DNA of 32,157 nt from Bacteroidales bacterium (lineage in GTDB: Bacteria > Bacteroidota > Bacteroidia > Bacteroidales > UBA12170): positions 1 to 32,157 of the forward strand of contig JAOZUW010000019.1 of the NCBI GenBank assembly GCA_029938465.1, in the 5' to 3' direction. The notes under the pieces are model-generated. The model was not told the DNA's origin, did no database searches, and worked only from the letters and a program-made list of their open reading frames with translations. Position numbers and translations under genes: made by a program. Below are positions 4,344-21,923 of the stretch, in pieces; the stretch's first letter is position 1, and the number at the start of each line of letters is the position of its first letter.

Positions 4344-4685
4344 CGAATAGGTAAACTACATATAGTATCGAAGACCAGTTCGGCATTCATTGTAAGGATA
4401 AAATAAGCGTATTTTTTAGCTTTTATAATAAAAATCTAATCCCATAACAGGATTTCACTATTTTGCATCATTATATATTTCAGTATTTTATTACCTATTT
4501 CTTTGAATTTACATCAAGACTTTTTATTTTTGGTTCAAAATTACTACTGACTTGATGACTGAGGCAGGATATAACAATCAAAAGTCTCTAAACAATTGCA
4601 CTTTTAGTAAAATGATTTAGCATTTTCAATTTTTTTTACTAATTTCACAGAGTATTTTTTACGAAACAAAAATCAAACTAATTTT
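4344..4685. other. Intergenic region upstream of the redox operon
   Basis: This 342-nt AT-rich stretch holds one strong promoter (4502-4532) and about 150 nt of predicted leader before the ATG at 4686. Two inverted pairs straddle the promoter: CATCAAG (4512-4518) with CTTGATG (4551-4557), and AGACTTTT (4517-4524) with AAAAGTCT (4580-4587). They cannot both form at once. I see no convincing gene. A 21-codon reading frame (4555-4620) in the leader has no support. Confidence 0.5.
4502..4532 (+). promoter_or_regulatory. Bacteroidota-type promoter of the redox operon
   Basis: TTTG at 4502-4505, a 19-nt spacer and TATTTTTG at 4525-4532 match the phylum consensus TTTG-N(about 19-21)-TAnnTTTG exactly. 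Expected transcription start is near 4537, giving a long (about 150 nt) leader to the ATG at 4686. Confidence 0.7.
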
Positions 4686-5663
4686 ATGTCAGATAAGAAA
4701 TCAAAGAACAACTCCCGGAGGGAATTCCTAAAAATAGGATCATTATTTGGGGTTGGGGTTGCTGCTGCTGGAGCTGCAGCTTATTCAGGATTTGCCTCTC
4801 AAGATGGGCATGGTACTTCTGGGGAAACAATTCTTTCGGAATCAGAACAAAAAATAAAGGTACTTACTGAAGATGGCACACTGGCTGAAATCAAAGCCAG
4901 CGAGCTAACACCAATAAAAAAAGACGAATATACCGATGCATTGCAAAGTCAAGGCCGTGAAGGCATAGCAGGAAAACACTGGGCTATGGTTATCGATTTA
5001 TCTCGCTGTAGAAATGTGAGAGCCTGTATGGCTTCATGCCAAAATGCCCACCATTTACGTGATGAGCAGCACCATATCAATGTGTTACGCATGCAAGATG
5101 ACCGGAATACAGAACCTTACTTTATGCCAAAACCTTGTTTCCATTGCGACAATCCACCCTGTACAAAAGTATGCCCTGTGGATGCCACTTTTAAAAGACA
5201 AGATGGTATTGTTCTTATTGACAATGAAAGATGTATTGGATGTCGTTTCTGTATTGCTGCTTGCCCCTATTCTGCAAGAGTTTTCAATTGGTTTGAACCT
5301 AAAGATGCGGAGAAAGATGAGGAATTACTATATAATGTAGAACTTAATGTACCGCAGAAAAAAGGTACCGTTTCTAAATGCTTATTTAGCGCCGATCGTC
5401 TTCGCGAAGGTAAATTACCATATTGTGTATCAGCCTGTCCTAATGGCGTTTACTACTTTGGCGATCTTAATGAAGATGCTGTTACCAATGGTACTTCAGG
5501 TGAAACGGTTCGTTTTAGTGAATTGATACGCCAAAATGCTGGTTATACACTTATGCCTGAGCTTGGCACTAAACCAAATGTGTATTATCTACCACCAAAG
5601 AATAGGATGTTTCCTTTTGAATTCAAGGGGAAAACTACCTTGGATGATGAACACCACGGATAA
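4686..5663 (+). CDS. Tat-exported ferredoxin subunit (NrfC/PsrB/DsrO-type) with two missing Cys ligands
   Basis: Electron-transfer subunit expected to sit on the periplasmic face and pass electrons between a membrane NrfD partner and another carrier. The Tat signal SRREFLK (residues 10-16) is followed by a hydrophobic Ala/Gly stretch. The four-cluster fold has four Cys motifs. Motif I is C108, C114, C118, with V111 where the second Cys is expected. Motif II is C151, C154, C159, C163. Motif III is C183, C186, C189, C193. Motif IV is C232, C247, C251, with S235 where the second Cys is expected. That makes 14 ligands instead of 16, with the two losses in the motifs that share the two outer clusters. 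It is first of three + strand genes, 36 nt before the NrfD gene. No molybdopterin subunit adjoins it. Confidence 0.88.
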   Translation: MSDKKSKNNSRREFLKIGSLFGVGVAAAGAAAYSGFASQDGHGTSGETILSESEQKIKVLTEDGTLAEIKASELTPIKKDEYTDALQSQGREGIAGKHWAMVIDLSRCRNVRACMASCQNAHHLRDEQHHINVLRMQDDRNTEPYFMPKPCFHCDNPPCTKVCPVDATFKRQDGIVLIDNERCIGCRFCIAACPYSARVFNWFEPKDAEKDEELLYNVELNVPQKKGTVSKCLFSADRLREGKLPYCVSACPNGVYYFGDLNEDAVTNGTSGETVRFSELIRQNAGYTLMPELGTKPNVYYLPPKNRMFPFEFKGKTTLDDEHHG

Positions 5664-5699
5664 AAAAATAATTTATTGAAAATTTAAAAGAAAAATAAT

Positions 5700-7046
5700 A
5701 TGTCTGAATCTTTATCAAAAGAAGAAGCCAAAATATTGGTCGATAAATATGCCGAAGATGCTATTAGACCAATGAAAAACCATAAGGGTTTTATCCTATG
5801 GATGGGTTTCTTAGGACTGGTTTTAGTAATCTTTGCTTATGCCTATTTCCTTCAATTACGTGATGGATTAAGCGTTACAGCTATGCGTGATTATGTAAGT
5901 TGGGGTTTGTATATAGCTAACTTTGTATTTTTTGTGGCTGCAAGTTTGGTGGGTATGCTGATCAGTGCTGTATTGGGTTTGCTCAATCAAAAATGGGTGA
6001 AACCCATTACACGTGTCTCAGAAATAATTGCACTGGGATTTGTATTAATTGCAGGATTAGTTATCATCACCGATATGGGTCGTCCTGACAGATTCCTCAA
6101 TCTGTTTCTTCATGGGCGTTTACAATCACCCATAGTGTGGGATGTTACTGTAATTATTACCTACACTGCTATTAGTACTTTACTCTTCTTACTGCCTCTT
6201 ATTCCTGATCTGGCTTTTATTAAAAGAAGAATGAAAGATATGCCCAAATGGCAATATCATATTTATAATGTTCTTAGTTTAGGTTGGATGGGAACAGCTG
6301 AACAGTATAAACTATTGCATAAAAGCATTAGAATGCTTAGTATTATTATTGTACCTGTTGCTTTATCTATACATACAGTAACTTCATGGCTATTTGCTTC
6401 TACATTACGTTCAGGATGGGATACTACTATTTTTGGACCCTATTTTGTAGCTGGTGCCTTTGTAGCTGGAGCTGCTGCCGTAATCATTTTAATGTTTATA
6501 TTAAGAAGCAATTATAAATTGGAAGACTATTTTACTGATCATCATTTTGATATGATGGGACGACTATTAGTGTTAGTTTCTCTACTTTATGCCTATTTTA
6601 ATATTAATGAATTCTTAGTACCTGCCTATAAAATGCGCTCAGGTGAAGCCGTTCATCTGTATACACTATTTCAAGGGGCTTATGCTGGTCTGTTTTGGAG
6701 TGTGCAAATAATTGGTATGGGACTACCTATCATTTTTATGATGTTTAAAGAATGGCGTAAACCTGCTAACTTAACTTTTATTGCAATTATAGTTCTTATC
6801 GCAGCTTTTATAAAACGAATTATTATTGTGGTACCTACTTTATTGCACCCTTATCTACCCATTCAAAATGTTCCTGAAAAATTCCACCAATATTTTCCAA
6901 CTTGGATAGAAATGGCAGTAACGGCAGGAGCCTTTGCTATGGCATTAATAATTATAACCATTCTTTTGAAAGTGTTCCCTGTAATTCCAATGTGGGAATT
7001 GGCAGAAGAAAAAGGTATTACTGAAGAATTTGAAAAACAAGAGTAA
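5700..7046 (+). CDS. nrfD: NrfD/PsrC-family quinol-interacting membrane subunit
   Basis: Integral membrane protein of 448 residues with roughly ten hydrophobic segments. Members of this family bind menaquinol and exchange electrons with the attached ferredoxin subunit; some (in alternative complex III) may move protons. Family features are SWGLYIANFVFF (67-78), ITDMGRPDRF (123-132) and IHTVTSWLFA...GWDTTIFGPYFVAGA (224-253), which resembles the ActC/ActF and PsrC region with its conserved His (H225 here). The N-terminal 30 residues are hydrophilic and charged, and so is the C-terminus (about 432-448). It lies between the ferredoxin and cytochrome genes (gaps of 36 and 11 nt). The symbol denotes the family, not a proven nitrite-reductase role. 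Confidence 0.9.
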   Translation: MSESLSKEEAKILVDKYAEDAIRPMKNHKGFILWMGFLGLVLVIFAYAYFLQLRDGLSVTAMRDYVSWGLYIANFVFFVAASLVGMLISAVLGLLNQKWVKPITRVSEIIALGFVLIAGLVIITDMGRPDRFLNLFLHGRLQSPIVWDVTVIITYTAISTLLFLLPLIPDLAFIKRRMKDMPKWQYHIYNVLSLGWMGTAEQYKLLHKSIRMLSIIIVPVALSIHTVTSWLFASTLRSGWDTTIFGPYFVAGAFVAGAAAVIILMFILRSNYKLEDYFTDHHFDMMGRLLVLVSLLYAYFNINEFLVPAYKMRSGEAVHLYTLFQGAYAGLFWSVQIIGMGLPIIFMMFKEWRKPANLTFIAIIVLIAAFIKRIIIVVPTLLHPYLPIQNVPEKFHQYFPTWIEMAVTAGAFAMALIIITILLKVFPVIPMWELAEEKGITEEFEKQE

Positions 7047-7057
7047 AAGCTATATCT

Positions 7058-7996
7058 ATGAAAAAGAATAATATTATAACAAACTTTAGTGTATTGCTTA
7101 TCCTTTTAATGCCTTTAATGGGATGGACACAAAGTGAATGGATGGTTAGCGATACTAAACAAAAAGAAAAAAATCCCGTAGCTTTTTCTGATGCTAGCGT
7201 AAAAGACGGCAAAGTACAATTTATGGCAAATTGCAAATCTTGTCACGGCGATCCAGGAAAAGACAATGGCTTACCATTAGTTCCCAAACCAACTGATTTA
7301 ACTTTACAGGCATTTTTAGACCTCAATACTGACGGAAGTATTTATCATAAAATGACAGATGGACAAATTACTATGCCTTCCTATAAAGCGATCTTATCAG
7401 ATCAACAAAGGTGGAGTATTGTTAATTTCCTAAGGTCAATGGATAAAAATCATAAAGTAGCAGAAAGTGTTGCCGCTTCAAAACCTCAGAAAGAAGCACC
7501 AAAAGAGGAAGTTGCCATTGCCGAAGCGCCCTATTATTTGAGCTTGAGCGTTGATGCTGCTAAAAATGAGGCAACAACAGTCTTCCAAGGCACTTTAAAT
7601 GGAGAAAAAACAGCTATTGAAGGCGCTGAGATTTTTATTGGTATAAAGCGATATTTTAACAATTTACCAGTAATGGATGCTGGCGCAACTACCAATTCTC
7701 AAGGAATAATAAAAACTTCTTATCCTGGTGATTTACTAAGTGGTGAAGATGGAAAAGCTGAATTAATAGCTTATGTGATAGATACTGAAACTTATGGGGA
7801 AATTACAGCTCACCAAGAAATAACGCTATCCCCTGCTCATCCGAATCATTTTAAAGACACTAGAGCACTGTGGGCAGATAGAAGTCATTTTCCTTGGTGG
7901 CTAATGATTACTTATTTATCTATAGTACTAATTGTTTGGAGTGTTATGGCAAAAGTGGTTATTAATATGCTAAAGATAAAGTCTTTAGGGAAATAA
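7058..7996 (+). CDS. Membrane-anchored monoheme cytochrome c with an extra beta-rich domain
   Basis: Exported class I-type cytochrome, probably the electron partner of the two upstream subunits. The signal peptide spans about 1-25 (SVLLILLMPLMGWTQ). One heme motif CKSCH is at 59-63, and M106 in the context TMPSY is the likely second axial ligand. The cytochrome fold ends near residue 128 (WSIVNFLRSMD). A Lys/Glu/Ala-rich linker (about 130-155) leads to a beta-rich domain (about 158-265) resembling an Ig-like or carboxypeptidase-regulatory fold. One transmembrane helix follows near the C-terminus (about 282-305, WWLMITYLSIVLIVWSVMAKVV). The start is 11 nt after the nrfD-type stop. A terminator lies 30 nt downstream, so this gene ends the operon. 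Confidence 0.88.
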   Translation: MKKNNIITNFSVLLILLMPLMGWTQSEWMVSDTKQKEKNPVAFSDASVKDGKVQFMANCKSCHGDPGKDNGLPLVPKPTDLTLQAFLDLNTDGSIYHKMTDGQITMPSYKAILSDQQRWSIVNFLRSMDKNHKVAESVAASKPQKEAPKEEVAIAEAPYYLSLSVDAAKNEATTVFQGTLNGEKTAIEGAEIFIGIKRYFNNLPVMDAGATTNSQGIIKTSYPGDLLSGEDGKAELIAYVIDTETYGEITAHQEITLSPAHPNHFKDTRALWADRSHFPWWLMITYLSIVLIVWSVMAKVVINMLKIKSLGK

Positions 7997-8026: not shown

Positions 8027-8063
8027 CTACAAAAGAAGTAAGCTCTTTTTGTAGCGTTTTTTT
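8027..8063 (+). terminator. Terminator of the ferredoxin-NrfD-cytochrome operon
   Basis: CTACAAAA (8027-8034) pairs with TTTTGTAG (8047-8054) across a 12-nt loop, then CG and seven T residues (8057-8063). It lies 30 nt after the cytochrome stop and 46 nt before the next gene, so the next gene has its own transcript. Confidence 0.75.
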
Positions 8064-13910: not shown

Positions 13911-16733
13911 ATGCAGGCTATTGATTTCTCAAAACTAAGTACCAAAGAATATATACTAATTAAGGATGCTCATATTCATAATTTAAAAAATATTGACGTG
14001 GCCATCCCTCGCAACCAGCTGGTTGTGATAACAGGATTAAGTGGTAGTGGGAAATCATCATTGGCTTTTGATACTTTATTTGCTGAAGGACAACGCCGAT
14101 ATGTAGAAAGTTTGAGTTCCTATGCAAGGCAATTTTTAGGCAGGATGGATAAACCCGAAGTGGAATATATCAAAGGTATCTCCCCTGCTATTGCCATCGA
14201 CCAAAAAGTAATATCCAGAAACCCACGCTCAACGGTAGGAACAACTACTGAAATATACGAATATCTTAAATTGCTCTTTGCACGAATAGGAAAAACCTAT
14301 TCGCCTATAAGTGGAAAAAGAGTAAAAAGACATAAGGTAAGCGATGTCATAGATTTTGTTTTACAATGGGAAGAAGGGCAAAAATTTATGGTAGCAGCTC
14401 CTTTGGACTTACCTAAAGATAGAAGCTTAGAAACTCAACTAAAACTATTGCAACAACAAGGTTACACTCGTATCAAACTTGGAAAAGGTGTACAAAACAT
14501 CAGTAATATTTTAGATGGACCAATACCTGTAAATCATAAAGACATTCATATTATCATTGATCGGTTGGCAGTAAAACATAATAGTGACTTCCAATTCCGC
14601 ATGTCTGACTCCGTACAAACTGCCTTTTACGAAGGAAAAGGAATATGCCATATTTATGAGATAGATGATCAAAATGAGATCATACATGAATTTTCTAATA
14701 AATTTGAACTGGATGGCATTATTTTTGAAGAACCAAACGTAAACCTTTTTACTTTTAATAATCCATATGGTGCTTGCAAACGCTGCGATGGATTTGGCAC
14801 CATTATAGGAATTGATCCCGACCTAGTCATTCCCAATAAGTCTCTTTCGGTATACGAAGAAGCTATTGCCTGTTGGAAAGGTGAAAAAATGGGAGAATGG
14901 AAAGATCAGCTCATTGTAAATGCTCATAAATTTGATTTTCCTATTCATCGACCAATATTAGAATTAACTAAGCAACAAAAAGCATTATTATGGTCAGGAA
15001 ATGAATTCTTTGAAGGAATAGATTCCTTTTTCAAAGAAGTGGAATCTCAAGCATATAAAATACAATATCGTGTGATGCTCTCGAGATATAGAGGTAAAAC
15101 CCTTTGTCCTGAATGCAATGGAACACGCCTTAGAAAAGATGCTTCCTATGTTTTAGTAAACGGGAAAAATATTCAAGAATTAGTTAAAATGCAACTTGAT
15201 GATTTGGATGTATTTATGCAAACCATACAACTTCAAGAATATGATAAAAAATTGAGTGAACGCATTTTTACAGAGATAAAGCGCCGGTTAAAAGTATTAT
15301 TAGATGTAGGCTTAGGCTACCTCACCTTAAACCGCCTATCGAATAGCCTATCAGGCGGCGAATCGCAAAGAATAAACCTAGCCACTTCATTAGGAAGCAA
15401 TTTAGTAGGCTCCATTTATATTCTTGACGAGCCATCCATTGGGCTACACAGCCGTGACAGTCAACAACTTATAAAAGTTTTAAAAAACTTAAGAGATTTA
15501 GGAAATACAGTTGTAGTGGTGGAGCACGATGAAGAAATGATCAAAGCTGCCGATCATATTATCGACTTAGGTCCATTTGCCGGTTATCAAGGAGGAGAAC
15601 TGATATTCTCCGGATCTTTAAGCGAGATTCTTAAAGAAAAAGAAGGTCTTACAGCACTCTATCTACAAGAGAAAATGAAAGTGGCCTCACTGGAATACAG
15701 CAGAAAATGGCGTGATTATATTGAAATTACTCAAGCAACTCAGAATAATTTAAAATCGCTTAACGTAAAATTTCCACTAAATAATTACACAGTAGTAACT
15801 GGTGTAAGTGGCTCTGGAAAAACTACTTTAGTAAAAAATATTTTATATGCAGCTCTAAAAAAGCATTTAGGTGGCTATGCTAAAAAAACAGGAAGCTTTG
15901 GACAACTTAAGGGCGATTTTAACCGTATCAGTGAAGTAGAACTTATTGATCAGAATCCCATTGGTCGATCCTCTAGAAGCAACCCAGCTACTTATGTAAA
16001 GGCATGGGATGATATCAGACAAATGTATGCCCAAGAGAAGTTAGCAAAAATGCGGGGATATAAACCTGGTTTTTTCTCTTTTAATGTCCCGGGTGGGCGA
16101 TGCGAAAGCTGCGAAGGAGAAGGTACCGTAAAAATAGAAATGCAATTTATGGCCGACATTAGCCTTTTATGTGAAGAATGTCATGGGAAAAGGTTCAAAG
16201 AGGAAGTATTAGATGTTAAAATGGCTGAAAAAAGTATTTTTGATCTTTTAGACATGACTATCAATCAGTCTTTGGATTTCTTTACGAAAAACCAAGCTCA
16301 ACATAACACCATGAAAAAGATAATCAGCAAACTACAGCCATTACAAGATGTGGGTTTGGGTTATTTAAAACTTGGGCAAGCTAGCAGTACTTTAAGTGGT
16401 GGTGAAGCACAAAGAATTAAACTGGCTTCCTATCTATCAAAAGGATTAAATATTGACCCTATTCTTTTTATCTTTGACGAACCCACTACGGGATTGCATT
16501 TTCATGATATCGATAAACTATTAAAAGCATTTTATGCTTTAATAGATCAAGGTCATTCCTTAATAGTTATAGAGCACAATTTGGATATGATTAAGAATGC
16601 CGATTGGGTTATCGATTTAGGACCCGAAGGTGGTGACTTAGGTGGAAAATTAGTTTTTGAAGGACTACCTATGGATTTAGTAAAAGCTGATACCTATACC
16701 GGGAAATCGTTAAAAGCACATTTGAAACTTTAG
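13911..16733 (+). CDS. Divergent UvrA paralogue (excinuclease ABC subunit A-like)
   Basis: Tandem ABC ATPase of the UvrA family, which scans DNA for damage and loads UvrB. The 940 residues are full length. Half one has Walker A GLSGSGKSS (42-50), a CKRC/CPEC zinc module (about 288 and 398) and the signature LSGGESQRI (about 480). Half two has Walker A GVSGSGKTT (about 630), the CESC...CEEC zinc module (about 731-760) and TLSGGEAQRIKLA (about 827). It is less like canonical UvrA than the second copy at 19068-21923. Its length argues against the short UvrA2 class that lacks the UvrB-binding region. Three overlapping ATGs (13903, 13907, 13911) lie in three frames; only the last is open. uvrD follows after 14 nt. 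Confidence 0.93.
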   Translation: MQAIDFSKLSTKEYILIKDAHIHNLKNIDVAIPRNQLVVITGLSGSGKSSLAFDTLFAEGQRRYVESLSSYARQFLGRMDKPEVEYIKGISPAIAIDQKVISRNPRSTVGTTTEIYEYLKLLFARIGKTYSPISGKRVKRHKVSDVIDFVLQWEEGQKFMVAAPLDLPKDRSLETQLKLLQQQGYTRIKLGKGVQNISNILDGPIPVNHKDIHIIIDRLAVKHNSDFQFRMSDSVQTAFYEGKGICHIYEIDDQNEIIHEFSNKFELDGIIFEEPNVNLFTFNNPYGACKRCDGFGTIIGIDPDLVIPNKSLSVYEEAIACWKGEKMGEWKDQLIVNAHKFDFPIHRPILELTKQQKALLWSGNEFFEGIDSFFKEVESQAYKIQYRVMLSRYRGKTLCPECNGTRLRKDASYVLVNGKNIQELVKMQLDDLDVFMQTIQLQEYDKKLSERIFTEIKRRLKVLLDVGLGYLTLNRLSNSLSGGESQRINLATSLGSNLVGSIYILDEPSIGLHSRDSQQLIKVLKNLRDLGNTVVVVEHDEEMIKAADHIIDLGPFAGYQGGELIFSGSLSEILKEKEGLTALYLQEKMKVASLEYSRKWRDYIEITQATQNNLKSLNVKFPLNNYTVVTGVSGSGKTTLVKNILYAALKKHLGGYAKKTGSFGQLKGDFNRISEVELIDQNPIGRSSRSNPATYVKAWDDIRQMYAQEKLAKMRGYKPGFFSFNVPGGRCESCEGEGTVKIEMQFMADISLLCEECHGKRFKEEVLDVKMAEKSIFDLLDMTINQSLDFFTKNQAQHNTMKKIISKLQPLQDVGLGYLKLGQASSTLSGGEAQRIKLASYLSKGLNIDPILFIFDEPTTGLHFHDIDKLLKAFYALIDQGHSLIVIEHNLDMIKNADWVIDLGPEGGDLGGKLVFEGLPMDLVKADTYTGKSLKAHLKL

Positions 16734-19067: not shown

Positions 19068-21923
19068 TTATTTCAACGCATCTGCCAAAAACGAAGCAGT
19101 GTAGCCTTTCTTTTGTTTAATAATTTCTTCAGGAGTACCCTGAGCCAAAATATAACCTCCTTCTTCACCTCCTTCGGGGCCCAAATCAATAATATGATCG
19201 GCTACTTTTATCACTTCCATATTATGCTCAATCACTAGAATAGTATTTCCTTTATTCACTAATCGATTTAATACTTCCAGTAAAACGCGAACATCTTCAA
19301 AGTGTAAACCGGTTGTAGGTTCATCAAGAATATAGAGCGTTTTTCCTGTAGATTTTTTTGCCAATTCCGAAGCTAATTTTACACGTTGAGCTTCGCCCCC
19401 ACTCAAAGTAGTAGATTGCTGGCCAAGAGTAATATAGCCCATCCCCACTTCACGCAGGGTTTTTAATTTTCGTTTGATATTTGGTATCTTTTCAAAGAAC
19501 TCCTCTGCTTGTTCAATGGTCATATCCAATACATCATTTATAGATTTTCCTTTATACCTAATTTCTAATGTTTCTCTATTATACCGCTTACCTTGACATT
19601 CTTCGCAACCAACCAATACATCGGGTAAAAAATTCATTTCAACCAATTTCACTCCAGCACCTTTACATGTTTCGCAACGACCTCCTTTTACATTAAACGA
19701 AAAACGTCCAGGCTTATATGCTCGTATTTTTGCCTCAGGAACCAATACGAAAAGTTTTCTTATCTCGTCAAAAACCTTTGTATAAGTAGCTGGATTGGAA
19801 CGCGGAGTTCTTCCAATTGGAGATTGATCAATTTCAATAACCTTATCAATTTTCTCTATTCCATGAATAGATTTATAAGCTAAAGGCTTTTTAACAGAAT
19901 GGTATAAATTTTGACTTATCAGTGGATATAAAGTTTCATTAATCAAAGTGGATTTTCCACTACCCGATACACCCGTTATACATATAAGCTTGCCTAAAGG
20001 TATTTCCAAATCTACCTTTTTCAAGTTATTACCTGCGGCTCCTTTTAAAAGAATATGATTGCCGTTACCCTCTCTTCTATATTTGGGTATTTCAATTTTT
20101 CTTGTACCTCGCAAATATTCACAAGTCAAAGTATCGCATAAATGCATTTCACCTGGAGCTCCCTGAGCTACTATTTGACCACCATGAACACCTGCTCCAG
20201 GACCCATATCAATAACTTCGTCAGCAGCACGCATCATGTCTTCATCATGCTCCACCACAATAACTGAGTTTCCCACATCTCTAAGATTCTTTAGAGAACG
20301 TATTAGTCGCTGGTTATCACGCTGATGCAAACCAATACTTGGTTCATCCAGTATATATAAAACACCTTGAAGTTGAGAACCAATTTGCGTAGCCAAACGA
20401 ATCCGCTGTGCCTCTCCACCTGATAAGCTTCGTGCCGATCGATTCAAGGATAGATAACCTAATCCTACATCTAGTAAAAATTTCATTCGAACCTTAACTT
20501 CGCGTAAAATCTCCATAGCTATTTTAGCTTCACGCTTGTTAGATTCCAGTTTTAATTCTCTTACCCAAATATCTAATTTTTTAATATCCATTGCAGCTAA
20601 TTCTGCAATATTCTTATTATGGAATTTAAACCACAGCGATTCTTTCTTTAAGCGAGTTCCTTCACAAACCGGGCAATTCACACGATTCATAAAGCTTGCA
20701 GCCCATCTCTTTATTGATTCGGAGGATGAATTTTCATTTTGACTATTTATAAAATTCACTATTCCTTCGAAACTGATACTGTAATCAGAGGTTACACCAA
20801 GCGACTCTTTATATATTCTAATATTTTCCGTCGACCCATACAAAATGGTTTGAATAGCTTCTCCAGAGAATTCTTTTATAGGCGTATCTAAATTGAACTT
20901 ATATTTTTGACCAATAGCTTCCAGCTGATTGAAAATCCATGAACTTTTATAGTCCCCTACAACAGCTATTCCACCTTTGCGAATACTTAAATTCTTATCA
21001 GGAAATATCTTATCAACATCAATCTCTGAGATATTTCCTAAACCATTGCAATGCGGACAAGCACCATAAGGAGAGTTAAAAGAAAAAGTATTGGGTTCTG
21101 GCTCATCATAGGCCATTCCAGATGCAGGACACATCAATTGCTTACTTAAAAAGCGTACTTCATTAGTCTCCATTTCCCAAACCAATAAACTGCTTTTCCC
21201 TATATTTAAAGCAGTTTCAACAGATTTTTGCAAGCGTGGTATATATTTTTCATTTACTTTAAGTTTATCAATAACTACTTCCACATCATGCACTTTATAC
21301 CTATCAAGTTGCATCCCAGGATACACCTCTTCCATCTCCCCATCTATTCGCACACTTAAATATCCTAAGCGTCTGATTTTTTCAAAAAGCTCCCTATAAT
21401 GACCTTTTCGCCCTTTTACCATAGGAGCCAAAATAGCTATTTTCTTATCCTCAAAATGCGCTACAATAAGCTTAATGATTTGCTCATTAGTATATTTTAC
21501 CATTTCCTCACCGGTTTCGAAACTATAGGCTGTAGCTGCTCTTGCATATAATAATCTAAGGAAATCATAAACCTCAGTGATGGTACCCACTGTAGATCGG
21601 GGATTTTTATTGGTAGACTTCTGCTCAATAGAGATTACTGGACTTAATCCGCGAATCTCATCCACATCTGGTCTTTCCATATTACCCATAAACTGCCTGG
21701 CATAAGCTTTGAAAGTCTCCAAATAACGCCGCTGTCCTTCAGCATAAATAGTATCAAAAGCCAGCGAAGACTTCCCGCTTCCACTTAAACCAGTCAGTAC
21801 CACCAATTTATCACGAGGTATTTTTATATCTACATCATCCAAATTATGAACACGAGCTCCATATACTTCAATATATTCTTGCTCTTGCTTCCTGTTATTA
21901 TGCTCTGGGTTTTTTGAACTCAT
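19068..21923 (-). CDS. uvrA: Excinuclease ABC subunit A, canonical UvrA
   Basis: DNA damage sensor of nucleotide excision repair; a dimer loads UvrB at lesions. At 951 residues it is close to canonical copies, with a hydrophilic N-terminal extension of about 17 residues. Walker A GLSGSGKSS is at about 45-53, with the UvrB-binding region after it. Zinc modules are CPHC...CPVC in half one and CETC...CEECQGKRYNRETLEIRYKGK in half two. Signatures are SLSGGEAQRIRLATQIGS and TLSGGEAQRVKLASELAKKS, with Walker B LYILDEPSIGLHQRD and LYILDEPTTGLHFED. The last phrases match E. coli-type UvrA closely, so this is the main repair copy. No uvrB or uvrC is in the window. Confidence 0.97.
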   Translation of the reverse strand: MSSKNPEHNNRKQEQEYIEVYGARVHNLDDVDIKIPRDKLVVLTGLSGSGKSSLAFDTIYAEGQRRYLETFKAYARQFMGNMERPDVDEIRGLSPVISIEQKSTNKNPRSTVGTITEVYDFLRLLYARAATAYSFETGEEMVKYTNEQIIKLIVAHFEDKKIAILAPMVKGRKGHYRELFEKIRRLGYLSVRIDGEMEEVYPGMQLDRYKVHDVEVVIDKLKVNEKYIPRLQKSVETALNIGKSSLLVWEMETNEVRFLSKQLMCPASGMAYDEPEPNTFSFNSPYGACPHCNGLGNISEIDVDKIFPDKNLSIRKGGIAVVGDYKSSWIFNQLEAIGQKYKFNLDTPIKEFSGEAIQTILYGSTENIRIYKESLGVTSDYSISFEGIVNFINSQNENSSSESIKRWAASFMNRVNCPVCEGTRLKKESLWFKFHNKNIAELAAMDIKKLDIWVRELKLESNKREAKIAMEILREVKVRMKFLLDVGLGYLSLNRSARSLSGGEAQRIRLATQIGSQLQGVLYILDEPSIGLHQRDNQRLIRSLKNLRDVGNSVIVVEHDEDMMRAADEVIDMGPGAGVHGGQIVAQGAPGEMHLCDTLTCEYLRGTRKIEIPKYRREGNGNHILLKGAAGNNLKKVDLEIPLGKLICITGVSGSGKSTLINETLYPLISQNLYHSVKKPLAYKSIHGIEKIDKVIEIDQSPIGRTPRSNPATYTKVFDEIRKLFVLVPEAKIRAYKPGRFSFNVKGGRCETCKGAGVKLVEMNFLPDVLVGCEECQGKRYNRETLEIRYKGKSINDVLDMTIEQAEEFFEKIPNIKRKLKTLREVGMGYITLGQQSTTLSGGEAQRVKLASELAKKSTGKTLYILDEPTTGLHFEDVRVLLEVLNRLVNKGNTILVIEHNMEVIKVADHIIDLGPEGGEEGGYILAQGTPEEIIKQKKGYTASFLADALK

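Follow-up and report, generated by a model that had tools for sequence, protein, structure and literature searches.

A three-gene ferredoxin-NrfD-cytochrome c module as a probable minimal menaquinol:cytochrome c oxidoreductase of Bacteroidales

Here we describe three adjacent genes (hereafter the trio) that encode an exported ferredoxin, an NrfD-type membrane protein and an anchored cytochrome c on a 32,157-nucleotide stretch of DNA (hereafter the window), contig JAOZUW010000019.1 of a Bacteroidales bacterium (GCA_029938465.1). The trio is a conserved Bacteroidales module, and as a unit it is far beyond chance, since dozens of genomes share this order of genes. Based on its parts, its conservation as a unit, its position next to terminal oxidases, its co-occurrence with them and its near exclusion with alternative complex III (ACIII), we propose that the trio is very probably a minimal menaquinol:cytochrome c oxidoreductase acting in place of complex III.

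The three open reading frames (ORFs) are located on one strand and are separated by gaps of 36 and 11 bases (Table 1). The N-terminus of the ferredoxin carries the twin-arginine (Tat) signal NSRREFLKIG, and the third ORF, which matches Pfam Cytochrome_CBB3/Cytochrom_C (2.5e-9), combines a signal-like N-terminal helix with a single CxxCH. A previous reading of the same DNA, made from the sequence only, had proposed these three parts, and ORFs, Pfam matches and signals agree with it. It had also pointed out that a catalytic subunit is missing; indeed, none of the genes next to the trio in the window encodes a molybdopterin or multihaem protein.

In a phylum-wide set of 395 genomes, nine other than the window's own carry an NrfD protein 46-54% identical to the window's. 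ActC proteins are ~31-36% identical to it and thus well apart from the trio NrfDs. Within the window's order, 58 of 247 genomes (its own included) carry the trio, with NrfD identities of 45-63%, and a scan of GTDB genomes revealed at least 525 relatives. Carriers in culture are Draconibacterium orientale, Marinifilum flexuosum and species of Maribellus and Ancylomarina. Two loci with no clean NrfD ORF (L099 and L209) were left out of the locus counts given below.

The genes next to the trio point to its partners. Oxidase operons are found directly 3' of it on the same strand, either CoxB-CoxA-CoxC-CtaB (aa3) or CcoI/CcoNO/CcoQ/CcoP/CcoG (cbb3). Such a cytochrome-c-type oxidase operon lies downstream in 29 of the 51 untruncated loci of the order (21 aa3, 8 cbb3) and, in a second collection, in 51 of 71 (29 cbb3, 22 aa3), with two more oxidases nearby; the oxidases were identified by Pfam for two examples and by BLAST to those two for the other loci. 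In Draconibacterium orientale (L202), the trio is flanked by two oxidase operons, a divergent aa3 operon on one side and a cbb3 operon on the other. Only eight of the loci examined have NarG or NapA near the trio. NarG is present in six (L114, L125, L134, L203, L224 and L230), most of which also have NarH and five a dihaem cytochrome, while NapA and NapB accompany the trio in two (L143 and L225). NarG and NarH of L134 and NapA of L143 score above the NCBIfam cut-offs. Four genomes (G396, G559, G561 and G629) harbour two trio copies each, one beside an oxidase and the other beside NarGH or Nap. As copies adjoin aa3, cbb3 or nitrate reductases, even within one genome, we read the trio as one electron-supply module that is plugged into different terminal enzymes, as expected of a menaquinol:cytochrome c oxidoreductase. 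The NarGH operons of L134, L125, L203, L224 and L230 can be seen as fed by a trio copy together with the dihaem cytochrome.

The sequence-only reading had offered two functions for the trio. The first, a minimal menaquinol-to-cytochrome c oxidoreductase, gains support from the oxidase adjacency in most untruncated relatives. The second, a partner for a catalytic unit encoded elsewhere, is supported as well and fits together with the first, the usual partner being a cytochrome c-dependent terminal oxidase and in a few cases a nitrate reductase. No one catalytic subunit accompanies the trio throughout: next to it lie aa3, cbb3, NarGH, Nap or nothing.

The same link emerges at the genome level. 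A c-type oxidase, called by a strong COX1 match (E below ~1e-100, plus two fragments), is encoded in 83 of the 247 genomes of the order. Weaker COX1 matches in frames of ~750 residues, which look like nitric oxide reductases, were not counted. With species taken as independent, the oxidase is found in 52 of 58 trio genomes versus 31 of 189 others (p ~9e-25), and the 83 oxidase genomes divide into 44 with the trio only, 27 with ACIII only, 8 with both and 4 with neither (p ~1.5e-10). A tally of the 52 families, assigned by family code, gives 25 that are trio-only and 15 that are ACIII-only. Moreover, 42 of the 44 trio-only oxidase genomes have no clear bc-type cytochrome b (39 of 44 if weak matches are counted).

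Several observations weigh against this proposal. The species compared are related, and the p-values therefore overstate the association, for which the family tally is a partial control. Six trio genomes have no clear c-type oxidase; four of these are very fragmented or only 82% complete, G416 and G430 less so. Taken over all loci, the oxidase-adjacent fractions fall to 29/57 and 51/79, and loci too short for a downstream operon had been dropped only where no operon was visible. In the window's own genome (a 3.07 Mb draft of 260 contigs, 94% complete), the trio and the cbb3 operon lie on different contigs, the latter on C39, and the nearest relatives (73-83% identical, L153-L155) likewise show no linkage between trio and oxidase. 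The genome also encodes a Rieske/cytochrome b/octahaem cluster on contig C84, possibly a separate bc-type complex, and NapA with NapH on contig C83, so that other donors and acceptors exist. In favour of the proposal, searches of this genome, which does encode a cbb3 oxidase, found neither a bd oxidase nor ActC; ActF was not found either. The CcoP-like protein of its cbb3 operon (L105:255-827, G000:C39) has one CxxCH instead of the usual two.

The C84 cluster could be the real complex III for cbb3 in this organism, with the trio serving another acceptor such as Nap, whose genes are present; elsewhere trio copies do adjoin NapA or NarGH, and in this genome the trio and the cbb3 operon are not linked. 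Two congeners (98% and 96% complete) bear on this question. Both lack the trio, keep the gene order ffh-folD-win2444-QueE with no trio after QueE, and have only the weaker COX1 match, indicating that the trio and the c-type oxidase are present or absent together within the genus. As the C84 cytochrome b follows the same within-genus pattern, this contrast alone cannot choose between the trio and the C84 cluster. Across the order, a clear bc-type cytochrome b occurs in only 20 of the 247 genomes and is absent from nearly all trio-only oxidase genomes, and oxidases are far commoner neighbours of the trio than nitrate reductases. Nap, furthermore, has its own quinol dehydrogenase, NapH. We thus regard this alternative as unlikely, and even under it the trio would remain a menaquinol:cytochrome c module. 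Six of the 20 genomes with a clear cytochrome b have no c-type oxidase; a cytochrome b similar to that of C84 is present in about 18 of the 247 genomes and is less tied to oxidases than the trio is.

ACIII (ActABCDEF) shares with the trio an NrfD-type quinol subunit (ActC), a four-cluster ferredoxin (the C-terminal part of ActB) and a monohaem cytochrome c (ActE). It feeds aa3-type oxidases, and its subunits are the nearest solved structures to those of the trio. Unlike ACIII, however, the trio lacks the pentahaem ActA, the molybdopterin-enzyme-like (Mo-like) half of ActB, ActD and ActF, all of which are absent from the window and from the loci of nearly all relatives. The exception is one genome (G537), in which the trio directly precedes an ACIII-like operon of a multihaem protein and ActB-, ActC- and ActD-like proteins (L129:5402-15432).

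A tree of 71 NrfD proteins places ActC in one clade (100/100) and the trio in another (98/96). DsrP and ActF were left out of this tree, its root is a choice, and it does not settle how trio, type II and DsrP branch at depth. A quick tree had placed DsrP inside the trio, a position that we do not believe given its very long branch of 5 changes per column. The 'type II' group (L047, L048 and L245-L257) comprises NrfD proteins with 33-39% identity to that of the window; those of L047 and L048 are accompanied by a separate Mo-like ActB-type protein, and L047 also encodes many multihaem cytochromes.

Comparing individual residues reveals the same separation. D125, S143 and D148 of the quinol site and the gate arginine R373 are invariant in all 67 trio NrfDs, and the equivalents of ActC Ser164, Asp169 and Arg395 are retained. 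S143 is taken to correspond to S138 of QrcD, which is essential for electron transfer to menaquinone (PMC13059093). In ActC, His139 and Asp253 belong to the quinol site and Glu394 lies beside the gate arginine (PMC8076601). These three residues are kept in 18/18 ActC proteins and are replaced in the trio by Asp (67/67), Leu (66/67, with one Ile) and Lys (67/67), respectively. The ferredoxins differ as well: all 56 trio proteins with a readable motif have CIGC, versus CIGT in both ActB examples read, the latter taken as the [3Fe-4S] site. Cysteines are also lost from motifs I and IV of the trio ferredoxin, changes which, we guess, give [3Fe-4S] clusters.

Judged by the missing ActA, ActD, ActF and Mo-like ActB half, the separate NrfD clade and the different quinol-site and cluster-ligand residues, the trio is not ACIII, and its placement in this known family, which the sequence-only reading had named as one of two outcomes that would overturn it, is not borne out by the tree. 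A divergent or reduced ACIII with its missing subunits encoded elsewhere could still be imagined, as ActC, ActB and ActE are among the nearest solved relatives and the L129 trio stands directly before an ACIII operon. Yet neither ActC nor ActF was found in the genome, the ActC-diagnostic residues and the CIGT of ActB are absent, and 44 oxidase genomes have the trio with no ACIII. We therefore consider a reduced ACIII highly improbable.

The third gene proved to be more than the cytochrome c that had been recognised from the sequence. In relatives from other orders, one gene matches its N-terminal haem domain and another its anchored C-terminal half; the third part is thus a composite of two proteins. 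The fused form found in the window is present in 49 of 57 trio loci of its order and in 70 of 79 of the second collection. The AlphaFold2 model, scored by mean predicted local distance difference test (pLDDT), consists of an N-terminal helix, the cytochrome domain, a beta-sandwich and a C-terminal helix. Foldseek identified ActE, the monohaem subunit of Roseiflexus ACIII, as the best match among solved structures, over ~97 columns corresponding to the haem domain, and gave no clear relative for the beta domain. C59, C62, H63 and M106 are invariant among 51 sequences.

A second subfamily of the module has the cytochrome unfused (L038-L046, L150, L206, L207 and L231). It adjoins a DUF5777 outer-membrane barrel, often with a small Tat protein and further cytochromes and sometimes with EB_dh or a hexahaem protein, and may serve a different electron exchange. 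One genome (G103) has two modules in tandem (L043:7915-15089). The barrel and the extra cytochromes of this distant subfamily would fit a module working in the opposite direction, as a Qrc-like cytochrome c:menaquinone reductase that is fed by periplasmic or extracellular donors, and NrfD/ferredoxin dimers such as QrcCD do run that way (PMC13059093). The adjacency to aa3 and cbb3 and the exclusion with ACIII indicate menaquinol oxidation instead, making the reverse direction very unlikely for the trio.

The sequence-only reading had assumed that a catalytic subunit is present in every known complex built from such parts. This does not hold. SirCD of Shewanella, a ferredoxin and an NrfD-type quinol dehydrogenase like those of the trio, works with no attached catalytic subunit and serves several pathways, and Geobacter CbcSTU (Cbc4) consists of a c-type cytochrome, a DsrO-homologous ferredoxin and a membrane subunit, again with no catalytic subunit (PMC11434368). 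The composition of the trio is less surprising as a result. By the descriptions in that paper, on which both comparisons are based, SirCD differs from the trio in that no fused cytochrome c and no tie to oxygen reductases are described; CbcSTU resembles it in its three subunits but is linked to extracellular electron transfer, and CbcS is described as cytochrome c3-family-like.

DsrOP provides the best NCBIfam match, with 191.9 bits for the ferredoxin (DsrO, cut-off 200) and 150.2 bits for NrfD (DsrP, cut-off 350). Since these scores are below the curated cut-offs, we rejected both names. DsrP and the trio NrfD have a quinol-site Asp in common; unlike DsrMKJOP, however, the window has no DsrM, DsrK or DsrJ genes and the trio cytochrome is monohaem. 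QrcCD of QrcABCD pairs a ferredoxin with an NrfD protein in a dimer and exchanges electrons with menaquinone (PMC13059093), but Qrc is a menaquinone reductase with a multihaem QrcA and a Mo-like QrcB, and the NCBIfam Qrc scores of the trio are far below cut-off.

In terms of families, the Pfam match (Table 1) and the conserved S143, D148 and R373 place the membrane subunit in the NrfD/PsrC superfamily. The trio does not belong to cytochrome bc1/b6f, as cytochrome b and Rieske lie outside it in the separate C84 cluster, nor to the Psr/Ttr type, as no molybdopterin catalytic subunit is encoded beside it in the window or in most relatives. That the trio is the electron-transfer half of a Psr/Ttr-type reductase whose catalytic subunit lies elsewhere might be argued from the several molybdopterin-domain genes of the genome and from the resemblance of the ferredoxin to PsrB and PhsB types. 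Most relatives, however, have an oxidase and no molybdopterin gene beside the trio, the Psr-like operon on contig C219 has its own ferredoxin and NrfD, and such enzymes have no place for an added cytochrome c; we give this idea almost no credence. The C219 operon (G000:C219:8033-12845, L051) encodes the molybdopterin subunit, ferredoxin and NrfD of a polysulfide-reductase-like enzyme, followed by two small membrane proteins.

Returning to the menaquinol:cytochrome c oxidoreductase, we infer the direction of electron flow, the cofactor types, complex formation, proton coupling and the acceptor of the window's copy as follows. The NrfD subunit would bind and oxidise menaquinol near the periplasmic side. 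The exported four-cluster ferredoxin would carry the electrons on to the one haem of the anchored cytochrome c, which would hand them, directly or via a small soluble cytochrome, to a terminal enzyme. This would mostly be a cbb3 or aa3 oxygen reductase and, for a minority of copies, a nitrate reductase; in the window's genome the cbb3 oxidase on C39 would be the likeliest acceptor. In Flavobacterium ACIII, electron flow to aa3 stops when ActA is deleted but not when ActE is, and the iron-sulfur chain has been compared to a dead-end wire (PMC8552683). As the trio has no ActA, the iron-sulfur chain would be the path left for its electrons. NrfD may also provide proton coupling, by analogy with QrcCD, which draws protons from the cytoplasm (PMC13059093).

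The flanking signals of the trio, proposed earlier as its boundaries, stand in part. The promoter motif is exact but not rare (Table 1), and for that reason we consider it no more than suggestive. The hairpin and T-run fold with a modest z score and were not among the terminators listed by a consensus scanner; a sigma-70 promoter and terminator scan of the window was uninformative. The window also encodes two UvrA-like ABC proteins on opposite strands (13911-16733 and 19068-21923).

Table 1. Features of the trio, its flanks and the C84 cluster. Positions refer to the window unless a contig is given.
Feature	Position	Strand	Evidence
Tat-exported four-cluster ferredoxin subunit, 325 residues	4686..5663	+	Pfam Fer4_11 5.5e-22; orthologs of 45-78% identity immediately 5' of NrfD in relatives
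NrfD-type integral membrane quinol subunit, 448 residues; D125, S143, D148, R373 invariant	5700..7046	+	PF03916 4.2e-33; residues kept 67/67; clade separate from ActC
Membrane-anchored monohaem cytochrome c, 312 residues; fusion of cytochrome and beta-sandwich/anchor protein	7058..7996	+	Pfam; halves separate in L038-L046; AlphaFold2 mean pLDDT 87.9
Ferredoxin cluster motif I, C108-C118; Val at second cysteine position	5007..5039	+	Second Cys lost in 59/60 relatives with readable motif
Ferredoxin cluster motif IV, C232-C251; Ser at second cysteine position	5379..5438	+	Ser in 44/45 of fused subfamily
Haem-binding CxxCH, cytochrome residues 59-63; Met106 likely second axial ligand	7232..7246	+	Invariant in 51 sequences; ligand role inferred
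Cytochrome C-terminal membrane helix, residues 280-311	7895..7990	+	Helix in AlphaFold2 model; membrane nature inferred from composition
Bacteroidota-type promoter motif TTTG-N19-TAnnTTTG	4502..4532	+	Exact match, but 9 in window vs 2.8 expected
Hairpin then T-run, probable terminator	8027..8063	+	-10.7 kcal/mol, z = -2.25
Cluster encoding an octahaem TPR protein, a Rieske protein and cytochrome b	G000:C84:14743-19470 (L053)		

Our searches of the open-access literature on ACIII, NrfD, cbb3 and menaquinol in Bacteroidales, Bacteroidota or Marinilabiliales, with subscription journals outside their reach, found no earlier description of the module. What appears to be new is a module free of a catalytic subunit, with a fused monohaem cytochrome and a tie to oxygen reductases, that replaces ACIII across many Bacteroidales. 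We think it fairly likely that the trio represents an undescribed kind of complex III, widespread in Bacteroidales, which serves as a plug-in for aa3, cbb3 and nitrate reductases and sends all menaquinol electrons via an iron-sulfur chain to one haem. At three proteins and one haem, it would be smaller than any other substitute for complex III known to us.

The trio would also add an entry to the NrfD family; the complexes tabulated in a 2021 review of that family are listed with a catalytic subunit (PMC8076601). In many Bacteroidales, our searches found cytochrome c-dependent oxidases but no ACIII and no bc complex, and the trio would account for the electron supply of these oxidases. It would further show that the chain regarded as a dead-end wire in ACIII can be the main route. 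The trio is thus suited to testing whether the main electron flow of ACIII-like complexes can run along their iron-sulfur chain, and its cultured carriers make the hypothesis directly testable.

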